56,642 nt of DNA from a bacterium HR19 (GTDB lineage: Bacteria > Calescibacteriota > Calescibacteriia > Calescibacteriales > Calescibacteriaceae): NCBI GenBank assembly GCA_002898315.1, contig BEHV01000012.1:1-56642 (forward strand), read 5' to 3'. Below the pieces are notes generated by a model. The model had not been told where the DNA came from, ran no database searches, and saw nothing but the letters and a program-made list of their open reading frames with translations. Every line of letters begins with the position of its first letter. Position 1 is the first letter of the stretch. Made by a program: the position numbers and the translations under genes. Of this stretch, positions 21,772 to 40,538 are shown piece after piece.

Positions 21772-23121
21772 TCACTCCCATCTTATTTTGCCTTCTTTTT
21801 GAGCTATTTTTATATCTTTGATTTTCTCTCCGTTTATATAACATGAAAAAATCTTCGGACAGTTCAAGATAAACTCATCTCCATCTAAAATAAACTCCAT
21901 CTCTTTTTTCCCATCGGAGTAGTAATGGTATTCTAATTTTCGCAGTATGCCTTTTACAAGTTCTGGATAGGGTCTTATTACTGGAAGAAAATTTGTCAGC
22001 GGGTTCAGGAAATCATCTACTATACCGAGAGAATATTTGCTTGCTTTATCATAAGCCCATATTGCGGACCCAATAAAGTTTGAATCAAAAAGATTTATGT
22101 GCTTCATAATCTTCTCATACACTTTTTCATCTTTCCATGAACTCCCGTATTCTCCGATTATCATAGGGACATCATATTTCAGAGAGTGTTCAAGATGCAT
22201 CAGAAAAACTTCTTCCGATCCTTTGTTTATGCCTAAAACTCCTCTTAACTCATCAGGAAGTGGATATATATGTGGAGCATACACCAAATTTTCTCCTTCT
22301 GGCTTCACAATATAGAAGTTCCATCCGAAATCAGATAGAGGATGAGTTTCATAAAAAATAAGCTTCTTTGAGAATTTTCTTATTTCATCTATGGCTTTTT
22401 TGTAGAACTCACGAAGGATTTCATTCTCCCATTTTTCTGTGTTGAGAAAACTTGAGCCGGGCCATGGTTCGTTCATTATATCAAATCCTACGACATTTTC
22501 ATACTGCTCAAATTCTCTTGCTAAAAATCCGAGCATTTTTATGTATGATGTTTGAACTCCATTTTTATCTTGCCAGAAAGAATCAAATTGACACATCAGT
22601 GCAGGTGATATGTAGTTCAGCATCCACGGTTTAATGTCTTGAAATTCCGGGCAAGTTTGATCTCTTGCCCATTCGGGCGGACCATCTCCTTCATCTGAAT
22701 CGGTTGCTTGAAAACCAAAAATGTCCTGATGACTATCTATGAGAACATAAATCTCATATTTTTTTGCTATTTCAATAATTTCTTTCAGAGAATTTATGTA
22801 ATCTCTGTTGTACCTTTCTCTTTGTGGTTCAACTGCTGACCAGAAGATAGTGAGGCGAATGAAGTTCAATCCCCATTTTTCTCTCAGAATTTTTATTTCA
22901 TTTTCTCTGACCCATGGGATGATAGTTCTTTTTGCTGTGTGAGATAAATTTACTCCTCTCAAAAGTATTTTGTAATCTCCCTTGCATATAAATCTTCCGC
23001 ACTGGTAGAAATTCTCTTTTTGGTTTCTCTCTTGAAAATTACATCCTTCTGGAAAATAAAAAGAGAAAAGCAATAGAAAGAAGCAATATACCTTTTTATC
23101 AGTCCTAACATAAAGCTCCAT
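21772..23121 (-). CDS. GH5 family glycosidase, endoglycoceramidase-like lipoprotein
   Basis: 449 aa. An N-terminal hydrophobic stretch ending FPEGC is a candidate lipobox. The TIM barrel shows LIDSHQDIFG, GDGPPEWA, GFDIMNEPWPG with the acid/base Glu, and IIGEYGSS with the nucleophile Glu. DSHQD and GDGxPEWA are features of endoglycoceramidase-like GH5 enzymes, which release oligosaccharide from glycosphingolipids; characterised relatives also act on other beta-glycosides. A C-terminal beta domain of about 80 residues completes the protein. It lies 186 bp downstream of the cytochrome b-ferredoxin gene and may be a separate unit. Substrate assignment is tentative. Confidence 0.84.
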   Translation of the reverse strand: MELYVRTDKKVYCFFLLLFSFYFPEGCNFQERNQKENFYQCGRFICKGDYKILLRGVNLSHTAKRTIIPWVRENEIKILREKWGLNFIRLTIFWSAVEPQRERYNRDYINSLKEIIEIAKKYEIYVLIDSHQDIFGFQATDSDEGDGPPEWARDQTCPEFQDIKPWMLNYISPALMCQFDSFWQDKNGVQTSYIKMLGFLAREFEQYENVVGFDIMNEPWPGSSFLNTEKWENEILREFYKKAIDEIRKFSKKLIFYETHPLSDFGWNFYIVKPEGENLVYAPHIYPLPDELRGVLGINKGSEEVFLMHLEHSLKYDVPMIIGEYGSSWKDEKVYEKIMKHINLFDSNFIGSAIWAYDKASKYSLGIVDDFLNPLTNFLPVIRPYPELVKGILRKLEYHYYSDGKKEMEFILDGDEFILNCPKIFSCYINGEKIKDIKIAQKEGKIRWE

Positions 23122-23307
23122 CTCAAATTTTTTTAGAATTTTCTCAAGAAATAAATCATTTCAAAAAATTTTTACTGTTTCCCGCAAGCTTTTTATTTGT
23201 TTCTTTTTGATGCTCTTATCTTGCTCTTTTTGGTTGTTCGGTTCCACAAGCTATGTTGAGATGACTTCTTTTTCCAATTTGAGAAAGCTTGATATTTTTC
23301 CATTTTT

Positions 23308-25032
23308 TCAATCCCTCAACCTCAGAAGAAAAACTCTATCTTCAAGCCTATACCTTTCTTTCAGAATAATCTTACCTGTTGCATCTTCAATCACTTCTAA
23401 ATCAATCTCTGTTATGCTACTTGGAAACATAAAATCTTCAAAAGTGTTTATCTTACCATCTTTCATTATACCGCTCGGGAAAAGTTTCTTTGAAAACAAA
23501 CGATTATCTGTTTTCACTTTGACCGTAATTGAACTTCTTTCAGCAGGAAATTTGAAGGAGTTTTTCATGTGTGGAAGATTTCCTTCAAAATCAAAATACT
23601 TTGAAGGAGATGAGAGGTAATCAATGTCAAGAATAAAAACCTTCCCGGAGAAAACTTTAAAATCAAGAAAGTTGAGTGGTAAAATGAGAAGAATAAACAA
23701 AGCTGCGAGCAAAGGGGCGAGGAAAACATTCTTTTTCCTTTTTGTTTGTTCCAAAAGATGTGTCTCATTTCTTATAACCGGGCGCCTTTTCCCCTCCGCT
23801 CTTTTTTCAGTCCAATCGTACCCCAACCTGAAATAACACAAAGAACATCCTATGAGCTTTACCTTCTTTGTCTTATCATCTATCATCTTCGGATTAACTT
23901 CACCTATGCACTGGACCAGAATATCTGCTTTCTCATCTGAACCAGAAAGAACACATTTTATCGTAATTTCATCTTTTTCTGATTTATATGAATAAAAAGG
24001 GAAGATAACGGCAGATGACTCACAAGAGCCAAAACATATACCGCAACCTACACAATCTGATTGGATTACCCGCGCTTTTCTCTTCCCATGAAGGTTCAAA
24101 ATTTCTATTGCATTGTAAGGACAATCCATAAAGCACTGCATACATCCGTTGCATTTTTCAAGGTCTATAACCGCTTTGTTCCTGAACTTAAATAAAAAAG
24201 GTAGAGTTAAAGTGATGGCAAACACAAAAAGAAAAAGGAAAGCCGAAATTTTTCCATATCGCACAAAAACAAGATAAGGAAATGAATAAAGAAAATCAGG
24301 AGTTATTTTATCAGGGAAAATAATTTCTCTCGCATCGTTGCCAAGCAGTGGCTGAAAGAGCAAAGATACAAGAAAAAGCAAAAGCAAAGCAGCAGAAGAA
24401 AGCATAAAGTTTGGAAGTAAAACCGGCTTTTTGAGCTTCATAACGTGCAATCCCAGAAAAGCGAGAAAAACCAGAGAGAGAAAAACATGGAAAATAAGAC
24501 ATATTCTGAAAATTCCAGAAAGCATTCTAATGTCAGAGATGAAAAAAGTTCTTTCCAGATTATCTGAAAATCCAACTGATGTGAGAAATTTCACAAGTCC
24601 TATTCCAATAACCTTGGCTGAGTCATCCCATACCAGGAGAAAACCTGTCATCCCTTCAATGATGATAAGTAAAACAAGAAGAAAGCCGAAAATATAAGTT
24701 TTCTTCTGCCTGAATTTTCCCGAGAAAAACGTTTCAAGGAAATGAAGTACAGAGAAAATCAAGAGCGCATCAGAAGAATATCTGTGAATAGCACGAGTGA
24801 AATTCCAGAATTTGCTCTGAGAGATAAACTTTACCGATCCATAAGATTTATCGGGAGAGACATCGTAAGCAAAAAGAAGGGGTATTCCAGACAATGCGCA
24901 TACGATAAAAGATAAAATCGCAAGAGCACCAAAGTTCCTGAAAATATTCAGATTCCTCGGCAGAAAAGAAGAGATATATAAAACAAATCTCCAGAACCTG
25001 CTGGTGTAAAATTTATTTTTTTGACTATCCAT
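23308..25032 (-). CDS. cytochrome b / 2x[4Fe-4S] ferredoxin fusion, membrane electron-transfer protein
   Basis: 574 aa. Residues 1-200 match the cytochrome b N-terminal four-helix core: two His pairs each 14 apart (AIHRYSS...LHF and IFHVFLS...GLH) would bind two b hemes. More membrane segments follow to about residue 280. Then come two CxxCxxCxxxCP clusters (CNGCMQCFMDCP and CVGCGICFGSCES), an additional Cys region with QCIGEVNP and GCSLCYFRLG, another membrane segment and a C-terminal beta-rich extracytoplasmic domain. It starts 4 bp after the sco gene and belongs to the oxidase operon. A quinol dehydrogenase or electron-bifurcation role is inferred; the combination is unusual. Confidence 0.78.
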   Translation of the reverse strand: MDSQKNKFYTSRFWRFVLYISSFLPRNLNIFRNFGALAILSFIVCALSGIPLLFAYDVSPDKSYGSVKFISQSKFWNFTRAIHRYSSDALLIFSVLHFLETFFSGKFRQKKTYIFGFLLVLLIIIEGMTGFLLVWDDSAKVIGIGLVKFLTSVGFSDNLERTFFISDIRMLSGIFRICLIFHVFLSLVFLAFLGLHVMKLKKPVLLPNFMLSSAALLLLFLVSLLFQPLLGNDAREIIFPDKITPDFLYSFPYLVFVRYGKISAFLFLFVFAITLTLPFLFKFRNKAVIDLEKCNGCMQCFMDCPYNAIEILNLHGKRKARVIQSDCVGCGICFGSCESSAVIFPFYSYKSEKDEITIKCVLSGSDEKADILVQCIGEVNPKMIDDKTKKVKLIGCSLCYFRLGYDWTEKRAEGKRRPVIRNETHLLEQTKRKKNVFLAPLLAALFILLILPLNFLDFKVFSGKVFILDIDYLSSPSKYFDFEGNLPHMKNSFKFPAERSSITVKVKTDNRLFSKKLFPSGIMKDGKINTFEDFMFPSSITEIDLEVIEDATGKIILKERYRLEDRVFLLRLRD

Positions 25033-25036
25033 AGCG

Positions 25037-25732
25037 TCAGAAGAGAAATTTTCTGAAAATGAGTACGAAAGTTATGATGAAAGCGAAAAAACCTGCGGTG
25101 TGATATACTATTCGCATATCAAACTCATATCTTCCAGTTATTGGATTGAAGCGATAGCAGAAAGATATAAGCTTTGAGAATATGCCGAAAACCTCTCCCT
25201 TCCCCGCTCTTTCAATTGCTATTTTCAAACTTTTCTCGTCAATTTTATCTGCTCCGTTGAGGAAGCTTGATATTTTTCCGTCAGGAGTTATGATATAAAA
25301 TACATTTGGATGTGCTATATCATCATCTGAAAATTCTATGTTAAAATCAAGTGAGGAAAGCAGCTTTTGAATGTCTTCTTTTTTTGCGGAGACAACATTC
25401 CAGTTTGAACCATCTATATCCCACCTTTGAGCAAAACCTTCAAGGTCTTCAACAGTATCTCTGTGGTCAAAAGAAAAAGAAATTATTTTATACTTTTCTC
25501 CGAGACCACCTATTTTTTTCACCGCCTCTTTTATGTTGAAGGTTATTATTGAGCAGAATTTCGGGCAACTCGTGTATATAGGAGATAGAATGAGAACTTT
25601 TCCCTCTGAAAAATCCATAATTTTGAATTCCCTCCCTTTGAAATCAAAAACATATATGTCAGATATACTTTTGCCTATTACATCGGGTTTCGGAGGGGAG
25701 AGTAAAGACAAAACTATAAGGACAACAATCAT
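25037..25732 (-). CDS. Sco1/SenC-family copper chaperone
   Basis: About 231 aa, thioredoxin fold anchored by an N-terminal hydrophobic segment and a second C-terminal membrane helix. The copper site TSCPKFC and the distal His in DDIAHPNVF are intact. Sco proteins deliver copper to, or reduce, the CuA site of oxidase subunit II, which is encoded just upstream in the same operon. The ATG at 25732 is chosen over TTG two codons earlier because TAAATT lies 7 nt before it. A 65-bp gap from subunit I could hold a secondary promoter. Confidence 0.88.
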   Translation of the reverse strand: MIVVLIVLSLLSPPKPDVIGKSISDIYVFDFKGREFKIMDFSEGKVLILSPIYTSCPKFCSIITFNIKEAVKKIGGLGEKYKIISFSFDHRDTVEDLEGFAQRWDIDGSNWNVVSAKKEDIQKLLSSLDFNIEFSDDDIAHPNVFYIITPDGKISSFLNGADKIDEKSLKIAIERAGKGEVFGIFSKLISFCYRFNPITGRYEFDMRIVYHTAGFFAFIITFVLIFRKFLF

Positions 25733-25797
25733 ATTCAAAAATTTAGTTTTTCAGCCCCCTTCCGCGCAAAAATGTAAATCTTTCGTTATCGCACACT

Positions 25798-27471
25798 TTA
25801 TTTCACGTACCATGTAGCAGAGAGCCACTTCCAGTTGAGGAAAAAATAAGTCATGAACCATACGAAAAAGATAAAGATTAAAGTTAGTGTTCCGGGACAC
25901 AATATAGAAGAGTGAGAAGGATTTTTCTTTTCTTCTTGAGGAGGGAGAACGATGGGAATCTGCATATCTTCTGGTCCCTTCAGCTTAGGACCGAAAAACA
26001 CAGATAGAACAACTATGAGTATCCAGAGAAGTGCTCCGAGAACCGCCGATACTCCACCTATCACAAAGAGTGTCCAGAAGAACCACATAGCCGGGTTGAA
26101 CTCGTGTTTGAAAGGTGCGTTTGAAAATAAAATATCGTAGTGTCTCCTCGGAACTCCAAGGTATCCCAGAGCGAGCATAGATATTGCAAGAATTGCTATA
26201 CCAAGTCCAAATAGCCATGGCTGAACCTTAGCAAGAGAATAAAGAACAATCTTTCTCCTGAAAATAAGTGGTATGAGGTAATATGTCGCTCCCATGAAGG
26301 CGAGTGTTGTTCCTATGACCACAGTTCCTTTGAAGTGCCCCGGCACAGCGAGGGTGTTGTGATGGATTATATTTGTTTGTTCTTTTCCTATCATAACTCC
26401 TGTCACTCCGCCGATGAACCCGAAACCAACAAGAGATATGAACATAGCAGAAAAAGCTGGATTTCCCCATGGCGCTTTTGCGAGCCAAGCAAAAATCCCT
26501 CTATACCCTCTTTTTCTCTGTGCTAACTCAACACTTGCCGGAATAGCATAAGCGTGAATCATAGACCCTAAGACAGCAAGATACATAGCATAAGATGTGT
26601 TGAAGACCTTCCATGCCGGAGAGACGGCAGGGTCAACAAGGAGATGATGAGCAGACGCCAGATTTATAAAAAATATGTACAGCAGGAAGGCGAGGCGTGA
26701 TATTTTCTCGCTTGGAGTTATTCCCCCAACAGAAAGATATGATATAAGATACCATGCAGATATCATTGCTGCAAGGTTTATCTGCTGAGCAGGATGCCCA
26801 ACTCCCCAAAATATTATTCTGTAATTTTCAGGGTCAACTTTATCTATAATACCGAGCGACCAGAGAAAAGTGGGGATAAAAATTATTGCTCCAGAAACCA
26901 AGGTGACAACTGCTATTATTGCTGCTGTAAGAAGTCCAAATGTAAATAGCGGCAGAGATCTTTCCCATTTTCCCTCTCGTTTTGCGACGACCAGATTAGC
27001 AAAGAACAGTATAACTCCAAGAAGTGCTCCAATAGCAAAGAGAAGGACACCAAGATAGTAAAGCCAGTGAGCTTTAAGAGGAGGATAAGATGTAAAAAGG
27101 ACATCTGCTTTTCCTTGTAAGATGGTGTAGTTTATCAGCAGTGCTCCGCCGAGCATAAGGAAGAATGCAAGCCAGCCCAATGGAGGAGAGGAAAATCTGG
27201 AGTTCAAAACAACCGTTGAACCGAAGTACAGTCCCGCGATTTCAAAAAATATTATCCAGAATAAAAGCGCATTCCAGCCGTGAAGAGTCAAAAACCTGTA
27301 ATAAAGATGTGGTGGAAGAAGATGGATTGTTGGGTGCCGAGTCAGAACTAAAAAGAAAGCGGCAATTATCGCTACAAGAAAGAAGATAACAGCAAAAACA
27401 GCGTTAACTTTTATAAGTGCCTCCCCTCTTTTATCTACTTCAAAACCCGTTATATCACACTTTCTAAACAT
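25798..27471 (-). CDS. heme-copper oxidoreductase subunit I, B-family-like, lacking active-site Tyr
   Basis: 557 aa with about 13-14 membrane segments. Ligands seen: H64 (LTLHGW, low-spin heme), H226 (GHPAQQ, CuB), H275-H276 (SAHHLL, CuB) and H379 (VPGHF, high-spin heme). Two key residues differ from O2-reducing B-family enzymes: the cross-linked Tyr four residues after the CuB His is Gln230, and the second low-spin-heme His of the HFH motif is Lys381 (HFK). Loss of the Tyr is known in nitric oxide reductase branches of this superfamily, so NO reduction is a reasonable alternative to O2 reduction. A strong GGGAGGAGGTG Shine-Dalgarno precedes the ATG. Encoded with subunit II, a small subunit and Sco. 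Confidence 0.85.
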   Translation of the reverse strand: MFRKCDITGFEVDKRGEALIKVNAVFAVIFFLVAIIAAFFLVLTRHPTIHLLPPHLYYRFLTLHGWNALLFWIIFFEIAGLYFGSTVVLNSRFSSPPLGWLAFFLMLGGALLINYTILQGKADVLFTSYPPLKAHWLYYLGVLLFAIGALLGVILFFANLVVAKREGKWERSLPLFTFGLLTAAIIAVVTLVSGAIIFIPTFLWSLGIIDKVDPENYRIIFWGVGHPAQQINLAAMISAWYLISYLSVGGITPSEKISRLAFLLYIFFINLASAHHLLVDPAVSPAWKVFNTSYAMYLAVLGSMIHAYAIPASVELAQRKRGYRGIFAWLAKAPWGNPAFSAMFISLVGFGFIGGVTGVMIGKEQTNIIHHNTLAVPGHFKGTVVIGTTLAFMGATYYLIPLIFRRKIVLYSLAKVQPWLFGLGIAILAISMLALGYLGVPRRHYDILFSNAPFKHEFNPAMWFFWTLFVIGGVSAVLGALLWILIVVLSVFFGPKLKGPEDMQIPIVLPPQEEKKNPSHSSILCPGTLTLIFIFFVWFMTYFFLNWKWLSATWYVK

Positions 27472-27493: not shown

Positions 27494-28126
27494 TTATTCC
27501 GGGTTTATTTTCCCGGCTTGGTTGAAATATCCTTTTTCTGCAAAATCATTTTTCTCGGTTTTTATTTCGCCGAGGTATTTTTCGGGTGTTTCTCCCTCAG
27601 CTATAACTATTACTTTTCCTATCATAAGGTGGTGTCCTATTCCGCAGAACTCGTTGCAGATGATGGAATATTCTCCTTCTTTTGTTGGTTTGAATTTCAG
27701 CACATGGTCATAGCCAGGGATTACCTGAAAATTCATGTTCACAGGTTGAAGAGAAAATCCGTGTTGGAGGTCAAGAGAAGATATGTGGAATGTGTACCAT
27801 TTATCTTTTTCGAGGACTAAAATAGGGCTCCACGACCACATTCTTGCAAGGAGTATAACATCTGATTCTGGCGGTGGCTTTACAACGGGGGTGCCATTTT
27901 TCTCACCTATTTTGTATTTTTCTACGAAGGAATTGTAGAGCTGGAAGAATTCCATTGGATTTACCTTGTAGGAGACGAAGGAAGTATTTTGTTTTCCGAA
28001 GATGTGCCATCCTATCATCCAGAAGAACATAAAGAGGCATGAGAGTAGAGCGATATATACCCAGGTTTTTTCGTCTTTTGATGGTTTTTCTTTGTCCCAG
28101 TTTTCAGGTGGTGGCAGGAGAGCCAT
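27494..28126 (-). CDS. cytochrome c oxidase-type subunit II with CuA site
   Basis: 210 aa. One N-terminal membrane helix (about residues 22-47) precedes a cupredoxin domain. The CuA ligands are complete: His in LQHGF and the cluster CNEFCGIGHHLM (C-x3-C-x3-H-x2-M). It would accept electrons from a cytochrome c or other periplasmic donor and pass them to subunit I. A single N-terminal helix fits B-family (ba3-like) architecture. It has a GGGAGGTG Shine-Dalgarno, sits 7 bp after the small subunit and 22 bp before subunit I. Presence of CuA argues against a quinol oxidase and against classical cNOR. Confidence 0.92.
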   Translation of the reverse strand: MALLPPPENWDKEKPSKDEKTWVYIALLSCLFMFFWMIGWHIFGKQNTSFVSYKVNPMEFFQLYNSFVEKYKIGEKNGTPVVKPPPESDVILLARMWSWSPILVLEKDKWYTFHISSLDLQHGFSLQPVNMNFQVIPGYDHVLKFKPTKEGEYSIICNEFCGIGHHLMIGKVIVIAEGETPEKYLGEIKTEKNDFAEKGYFNQAGKINPE

Positions 28127-28133
28127 TTTGGGT

Positions 28134-28325
28134 TCACCTCCCTTGTGTTAGGAAAATCTGTTTGATTTGTGCGGGGAGTTCAGAAACTTGTGATACTTCC
28201 ATAATTCCCCAGATCACATAAAATATTATGTATACTGCGACTCCGAGGAACAGAAGGAGCATGGGGTCATCAAGTATTTCCCTCAATAAACTTCCTTTTT
28301 TGTTTTTTTCTTTTTCTTGCTCCAT
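28134..28325 (-). CDS. small single-helix oxidase subunit (IIa-like)
   Basis: 63 aa. A charged N-terminus (Glu/Lys), one membrane helix around residues 18-43 and a short tail. It is the first gene of the oxidase operon, with an AAAGGAGGTG Shine-Dalgarno 7 nt before the ATG. Position and topology match the small IIa subunit that precedes subunit II in ba3-type oxidase operons. Assignment rests on context and topology, not on residue identity. Confidence 0.65.
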   Translation of the reverse strand: MEQEKEKNKKGSLLREILDDPMLLLFLGVAVYIIFYVIWGIMEVSQVSELPAQIKQIFLTQGR

Positions 28326-40223: not shown

Positions 40224-40538
40224 CTATTCAATTATTATCATTATATTTCCGTTTTCATCTATTTCAACATCAAATTTTTTGATCGGGGCGGGAGCTGGTA
40301 AAGAGAGATTTTTACCTGTTTCAAGTTCAAATTCTGCTCCGTGCCACATGCATATCAATTTTCCTTCTTCAAGGTCGTAATTTTCAGAAATCGGCATGTG
40401 CTGGTGAGAGCATATATCTTCAAAAGCATAGACCTTCCCGTTTTGCTTTACGATAAGAATTGGCGTATCGTCTATTTCAAATCCCCTTGCTTCTCCGTCT
40501 CTTATATCGTTTATATTGCACACCCTTACCTTTTTCAT
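40224..40538 (-). CDS. Rieske-type [2Fe-2S] ferredoxin
   Basis: 104 aa soluble Rieske protein. The cluster ligands are C-x-H in CSHQHMPI and C-x2-H in CMWHGAEF, about 18 residues apart. It lacks a membrane helix, so it resembles the small ferredoxins of aromatic dioxygenases or NirD-like proteins, not the bc1 subunit. It is directly upstream of sufS; the pairing of a Rieske protein with a cysteine desulfurase is common in genomes and may reflect Fe-S or sulfite/nitrite chemistry. The donor and acceptor are unknown. Confidence 0.88.
   Translation of the reverse strand: MKKVRVCNINDIRDGEARGFEIDDTPILIVKQNGKVYAFEDICSHQHMPISENYDLEEGKLICMWHGAEFELETGKNLSLPAPAPIKKFDVEIDENGNIMIIIE

Follow-up and report, generated by a model that had tools for sequence, protein, structure and literature searches.

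The operon and its genes

We analyzed a 56,642-nucleotide stretch of the bacterium HR19 genome (contig BEHV01000012.1), referred to here as the window. Four genes lie on one strand in the order subunit II, subunit I, sco and cyt b-Fd, the last being a cytochrome b fused to ferredoxin clusters and further domains. The gap between subunit II and subunit I is 22 bases and that between subunit I and sco is 59 bases. The cyt b-Fd ORF, P0001, runs from 25032 to 23308 on the minus strand, begins with ATG and encodes 574 residues, while the plus strand at 23308-25032 contains many stop codons. The sco gene ends 4 bases upstream of P0001, which bears out the initial annotation's placement of the frame directly after sco. 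The features of the locus are listed below.

23308..25032, minus strand: P0001, cyt b-Fd-FlpD-TM-beta protein, 574 aa (ORF, Pfam, alignment, AlphaFold2 model)
23314..23643, minus strand: predicted extracytoplasmic beta domain, residues 464-573, with a conserved His-Met pair, H488 M489 (models)
23668..23730, minus strand: C-terminal TM helix, about residues 435-455 (hydropathy; helix in the AlphaFold2 model)
23776..23970, minus strand: shortened FlpD/MvhD-like module, residues 355-419, with C360, C375, C396 and C399 (PF02662 in relatives, see below)
24007..24174, minus strand: 2x[4Fe-4S] ferredoxin domain, residues 287-342 (Fer4_21, 2.8e-9; closest solved relatives include the HdrA C-terminal ferredoxin)
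24187..24423, minus strand: two further TM helices, residues 204-282 (structural alignments to cytochrome b reach residue 283 or beyond)
24286-24300, minus strand: PEWY-like motif PDFLY, residues 245-249 (aligned to xDWYF of Rieske-linked cytochrome b)
24427..24975, minus strand: diheme cytochrome b core, residues 20-202, ligands H83/H97 and H182/H196 (PF00033, 1.7e-13)
25037..25738, minus strand: P0002, Sco/SenC copper chaperone (PF02630, 1.1e-10)
25798..27471, minus strand: P0003, heme-copper subunit I, predicted eNOR type, with GHPAQQ, HH and HFK (PF00115, 9.2e-68; Gln signature; ba3 oxidases are the best solved relatives)
27494..28126, minus strand: P0004, subunit II, intact CuA motif CNEFCGIGHHLM (CuA ligands 58/58)
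28137..28325, minus strand: 63-aa single-TM ORF directly upstream of subunit II (kept in the same-genus genome G002)

The fusion is intact in G002, with 86% amino acid identity and a dN/dS of 0.16, and is therefore not an assembly error; among relatives it occurs fused or split. At the G002 locus (L156:2756-6088), two 540-aa-class FAD-like oxidoreductase ORFs lie between the cytochrome gene and a GH5 glycosidase; the corresponding window segment, 23121-23308, does not have them.

P0001 combines a diheme cytochrome b with two iron-sulfur modules

Pfam recognizes Cytochrome_B (PF00033) together with Fer4 domains in P0001. A profile scan of genomes returned 579 relatives, of which the best 80 were analyzed. 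The two His pairs that had been described as 14 residues apart are exactly so spaced, and all four His are present in 80/80 of these best relatives. The AlphaFold2 model of the whole protein has a pLDDT of 89.5 and a pTM of 0.89. When the membrane part was superposed on bc1-type cytochrome b with VIA-align, the best match had a Z of 23.9 (rmsd 3.5, 260 residues aligned), and many rows extend past residue 280. Sequence and model together identify P0001 as a six-helix cytochrome b with two predicted bis-His heme sites stacked across the membrane.

In an alignment with the cytochrome b of Rieske operons, PDFLY of P0001 falls on SDWYF, the PEWY place. Residue D246 is Asp in 77 and Asn in 3 of the best 80 relatives, most of which read xDW(F)Y; thus the acidic residue is kept within a degenerate motif. 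P0001 shares the four heme His, the fold and a PEWY-like stretch with the cytochrome b of bc1 and b6f complexes, but it has no Rieske or c1/f protein nearby, its Fe-S and FlpD parts are fused to it, and its PEWY motif is degenerate.

Both of the 4Fe-4S motifs noted earlier are present (C294, C297, C300, C304 and C327, C330, C333, C337), and seven of these Cys are found in all of the best 80 relatives and C330 in 79. The third Cys region is likewise real and aligns to FlpD/MvhD. PF02662 is detected in 76 of the best 80 aligned proteins, with C360, C375 and C396 kept in 80/80 and C399 in 68/80. A profile built from these 80 members matched the HdrA C-terminal ferredoxin among solved chains at 1e-18 (about profile positions 279-375) and MvhD at 4e-15 (best match from position 380 of the profile onward). 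P0001 resembles MvhD (FlpD) plus the HdrA C-terminal ferredoxin in having two Fe-S modules side by side. It differs from Hdr/Mvh systems in that a membrane diheme cytochrome b replaces the HdrA flavin and the operon contains no hydrogenase or HdrBC.

A similar combination appears in RME88945.1, a single ORF with cytochrome c (C1), cytochrome b6, DMSOR-beta-like Fe-S and FlpD domains, as given in the available part of PMC8756737 (Table A3). It shares the last three domains with P0001 and differs in its extra C1 domain; the table lists it without functional comment.

P0001 relatives are linked to one type of heme-copper enzyme

The initial annotation suggested that P0001 belongs with the heme-copper (HCO) enzyme encoded beside it, and this link is consistent across many phyla. 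The same HCO type is found on the same stretch for 66 of the best 80 relatives. Among these 80, 38 loci are flanked by 5 kb or more of sequence on each side, and 37 of them adjoin this HCO type, so the homologues are not simply parts of unrelated complexes. The one exception, L092 (Magnetococcales), adjoins NirS. The loci come from many phyla, among them Bdellovibrio relatives, Gemmatimonadota, Acidobacteria, Aquificota, Verrucomicrobiota, Nitrospirae and Proteobacteria, and one is from an archaeal bin. In the 66 paired loci the two genes are at most 5,054 bases apart, on the same strand in 39 loci and on opposite strands in 27.

We also surveyed 290 genomes, using cut-offs of E <= 1e-70 for the HCO (16 genomes) and E <= 1e-80 for the long cytochrome (15 genomes). 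Both were present in 12 genomes, the HCO only in 4, the cytochrome only in 3 and neither in 271 (Fisher p = 1.4e-15), and in each of the 12 the two genes share a contig, separated by a few kb. The cytochrome lacks an HCO in G053 (6.1-kb contig) and in G079 and G264 (Rieske operons). The HCO lacks the cytochrome in G001, G023, G213 and G036 (5.3-kb contig). Since the first three of these carry the HCO with no nearby partner, the HCO can work without cyt b-Fd. Its neighbors in G023 and G213 are a copper-oxidase-family protein and Rrf2, and in G023 also ScdA_N.

Across 58 sequences, pairwise distances were correlated between the cytochrome and the HCO (r=0.91), the HCO and subunit II (0.89), and the cytochrome and subunit II (0.84), all uncorrected for the species tree and from a sample rich in Gemmatimonadota. 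None of 2000 permutations reached any of these values. Sequence comparison establishes that P0001 is genetically linked to the putative eNOR subunits and co-diverges with them.

Within the best 80 loci, which are of unequal length, the neighbors include Rrf2 (33), heme O synthase (20), NirS (8) and hemerythrin (5). Eight Rrf2 neighbors were scanned and none reached the NsrR equivalog cut-off, and therefore we do not claim NO sensing. A Defluviimonas plasmid carries the annotations 'cbb3-type subunit I', heme o synthase, SCO, 'cytochrome b N-terminal domain-containing protein', hypothetical and hemerythrin. In Aquificota, L106:1899-10710 is a compact nitrosative locus with NirS-type proteins, Sco, eNOR I/II, a divergent cyt b-Fd, hemerythrin, an NnrS-like protein and Rrf2. 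Two cyt b-Fd paralogues per locus, together with eNOR, are seen in L101, L102 and L107.

The cyt b-Fd module also occurs elsewhere. In a few genomes paralogues lie away from any HCO (L166, L168), and the closest related module is found in operons with cytochrome b (L159, L160, L172), where the partner is a Rieske/cytochrome b pair, there is no eNOR-type HCO and FlpD is a separate ORF. Rieske is upstream in L159 and L160 and does not appear in the L172 listing. In the cytochrome b of these three operons, Arg takes the position of H97 and the H196 position lacks a His, so that this protein may hold one heme only.

Such occurrences would fit P0001 being a separate quinone-linked enzyme that moves electrons between quinone and cytoplasmic ferredoxin or NAD(P)H, in either direction, and whose tie to eNOR is no more than shared regulation under nitrosative or low-oxygen conditions. 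The opposite orientation of the two genes in 27 of the 66 paired loci points the same way, as does FlpD itself, which serves soluble dehydrogenases in Hdr/Mvh systems. We find a separate enzyme quite unlikely, because linkage in 37/38 loci and an r of 0.91 exceed what co-regulation usually gives and because no dedicated dehydrogenase is recognized beside P0001.

An eNOR-type NO reductase is the better reading of the partner

The enzyme beside P0001 had been called an unusual oxidase. It stands as the consistent neighbor, and an eNOR-type NO reductase fits its active site and intact CuA better than an oxidase does. Subunit I has the B-family heme-copper fold, with ba3 oxidases as its best solved relatives. 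The active-site Tyr is replaced by Gln (GHxxQQ) in 64 of the 66 HCO rows, the other 2 being gaps, and the HH pair is present in 65 rows, with 1 gap. The CuA ligands of subunit II are complete in 58/58. In the available part of PMC8756737, replacement of the cross-linking Tyr by Gln is the mark of eNOR, an enzyme type already described in the accessible portions of that paper and of PMC4653789, PMC8114936 and PMC8879329.

The host assembly (1.88 Mb, estimated 82% complete) encodes NirS (cd1 nitrite reductase), next to which lie other D1 proteins and one radical-SAM protein, and a full NosZ. Its COX1-family matches are an aa3-type protein, P0003 and two short or weak ones; only the first two are full-length, and no candidate NO reductase other than the window HCO was thus found in the assembly. 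Because of the Gln substitution and the presence of NirS and NosZ, we prefer to class the partner as an eNOR-type NO reductase rather than an oxidase, with NO reduction as its predicted activity.

The operon agrees with published eNOR (ba3-a1) in the Gln of subunit I, the CuA of subunit II and the adjacent Sco. It differs in that eNOR is published as a two-subunit enzyme with a cytochrome c donor (PMC8879329, citing its ref. 45), the available text of which does not discuss a cytochrome b-ferredoxin subunit. We dropped the idea that P0001 is 'orf1' of the Nitrosomonas norSY-senC-orf1 (sNOR) cluster, as published descriptions set the two apart: sNOR has Asn at the cross-linking Tyr place (PMC8756737, in the sections at hand), and the last gene of related Bacillus clusters encodes a 6-TM CbaD-like protein (PMC3475470).

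The reading closest to that proposed at first, a high-affinity O2 reductase with P0001 as its quinol-oxidizing subunit, would suit a B-family, ba3-like subunit I, and some authors argue for O2 reduction by the related sNOR of Nitrosomonas (PMC6967387, from the part available). We nevertheless consider it very improbable. The Gln signature argues against it, as do NirS, NosZ and a separate aa3-type oxidase in the host and NirS beside relatives.

The second low-spin heme ligand is residue 381 of P0003 (window 25798-27471), which by alignment would correspond to H386 of ba3. The motif is HFH in 58 of 66 rows; its last residue is Lys (HFK) in the window, in G002 and in five Aquificota loci. In the clade with HFK, the low-spin heme may be altered or missing. 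Since HFK occurs in only 7/66 rows rather than the whole group, it is left out of our explanation. Separately, a second COX1-family ORF lies beside eNOR in L084:1859-3424, L089:1894-3357, L104:1924-3336, L121:9264-10538, L158:8531-10009 and others. The ten that we checked are 424-521 aa long; PAHYH and the GHxxQ stretch are present in 10/10 and the HH pair for CuB in 0/10.

The beta domain and a possible role in copper delivery

The beta-like tail noted earlier is modeled confidently (pLDDT 89.6 for the tail alone). Its main conserved feature is the His-Met pair, with H in 55/66 and M in 61/66. In at least 20 relatives, mostly Gemmatimonadota, the tail is a separate ORF just downstream; this indicates gene fission or fusion, and the tail is therefore part of the same system. 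Foldseek returned nothing for the tail fold at E <= 0.001. The best VIA-align rows are beta-sandwich domains (Z 9.1, rmsd 2.0, 78 aligned), and unrelated families reach Z 6-8. On these models we read the tail as a generic beta-sandwich that offers no functional hint, although it may still belong to a known family.

A tail of this kind recalls CcoG, a characterized cupric reductase that has two Cu sites and carries an Ig-like domain in addition to two tetranuclear clusters (PMC7558416, in the part available). Together with Sco, P0001 might be an assembly factor of the CcoG/FixG kind, a trans-membrane cupric (or disulfide) reductase supplying Cu(I) to the CuA and CuB of eNOR. This is the main rival because of its architecture, its His-Met pair and its sco neighbor: the order TM, 2x[4Fe-4S], TM, beta domain parallels CcoG, which also has an extracytoplasmic Ig-like domain after a final TM and is encoded beside a heme-copper enzyme; the His-Met pair could bind copper; and P0001 directly follows sco. 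Heme O synthase, often near relatives, is also in keeping with such a factor. We still consider it unlikely. CcoG has no heme b, PEWY-like motif or FlpD. FixG_C (PF11614) is found in 0 of the best 80 aligned proteins, and the P0001 tail gave no alignment with one FixG tail (hhalign, single sequence), so that the two are not detectably related. In addition, P0001 distances track the HCO as closely as those of a structural subunit do.

P0001 as a candidate electron-input subunit

How the predicted eNOR receives electrons bears on the role of P0001. No bc1-type complex was found in the host assembly (82% complete); P0001 is its only PF00033 protein (cytochrome b), and its only Rieske protein is a 104-aa ferredoxin at 40224-40538. 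In agreement with the initial annotation, no Rieske/cytochrome c1 pair adjoins P0001, as the operon contains no Rieske and there is no CXXCH in P0001-P0004. On balance, P0001 is probably a dedicated electron-input subunit of the CuA-containing eNOR, doing the job of Rieske/cytochrome c1 elsewhere. We favor this role because of the linkage in 37/38 loci, the co-occurrence in 12 of 290 genomes, the distance correlation of 0.91, the Gln signature, the NirS and NosZ of the host and the lack of another NOR candidate in its assembly.

In such an arrangement, the Fe-S clusters and FlpD would lie on the cytoplasmic side and the beta domain outside. The cofactor chain would run from the FlpD [2Fe-2S] through 2x[4Fe-4S], heme bH and heme bL to a quinone site at the outer face, delivering electrons there that come from the quinol pool, a cytoplasmic donor or both. 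The beta domain may dock onto subunit II or a cytochrome c, and CuA, the low-spin site and the heme-CuB center would then reduce NO. The Fe-S part would correspond to the MvhD to HdrA-ferredoxin relay with heme b instead of the HdrA flavin. By analogy with Hdr/Mvh, cytoplasmic donors may feed in, and by analogy with bc1, quinol would be oxidized outside; both routes would end at eNOR.

Several observations count against an input subunit. CuA is normally reduced by a soluble carrier, so direct coupling to P0001 is unnecessary. In P0001 itself, Pfam does not recognize the shortened FlpD module (PF02662), and neither an FAD partner nor a dehydrogenase partner for FlpD was identified alongside. 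The PEWY-like motif is more degenerate in the window species than in relatives, and cyt b-Fd evolves faster than the eNOR subunits (dN/dS 0.16 versus 0.03 and 0.06). The module's presence in Rieske/cytochrome b operons that lack an eNOR-type HCO also weighs against this role, as does the same-genus G001, in which eNOR, Sco, NirS and NosZ are present and a PF00033 protein is absent. The G001 locus, L155, has eNOR subunits and Sco, with subunit I 57% identical, and no cytochrome b; thus the locus was replaced or the partner was lost within the genus.

Electron flow could also divide. Quinol electrons might be split at the outer-face site, one passing to CuA and NO and the other through bL, bH, 2x[4Fe-4S] and FlpD to ferredoxin or NAD(P)+, a scheme that we regard as decidedly unlikely. 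If it were true, NO reduction would drive a supply of low-potential electrons without Rieske, a quinol-based electron bifurcation tied to denitrification.

Implications for denitrification

The greenhouse gas N2O is formed at the NO reduction step. Already known are eNOR itself and one fusion of this kind, tabulated without discussion in the available part of PMC8756737 (Table A3). In the literature searched, the scope of which did not extend to the key 2024 eNOR paper, we found no discussion of cyt b-Fd as an eNOR partner. A conserved cytochrome b with Fe-S and FlpD modules that co-diverges with eNOR over many phyla is a concrete candidate for the point at which electrons enter eNOR. Cyt b-Fd may also serve as a marker that separates eNOR from oxidases among proteins annotated 'cbb3-type subunit I'. 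An Hdr/Mvh relay tied to a cytochrome b could let low-potential carriers of the cytoplasm exchange electrons directly with denitrification. The presence of cyt b-Fd beside eNOR thus hints at an undescribed way of powering part of denitrification.
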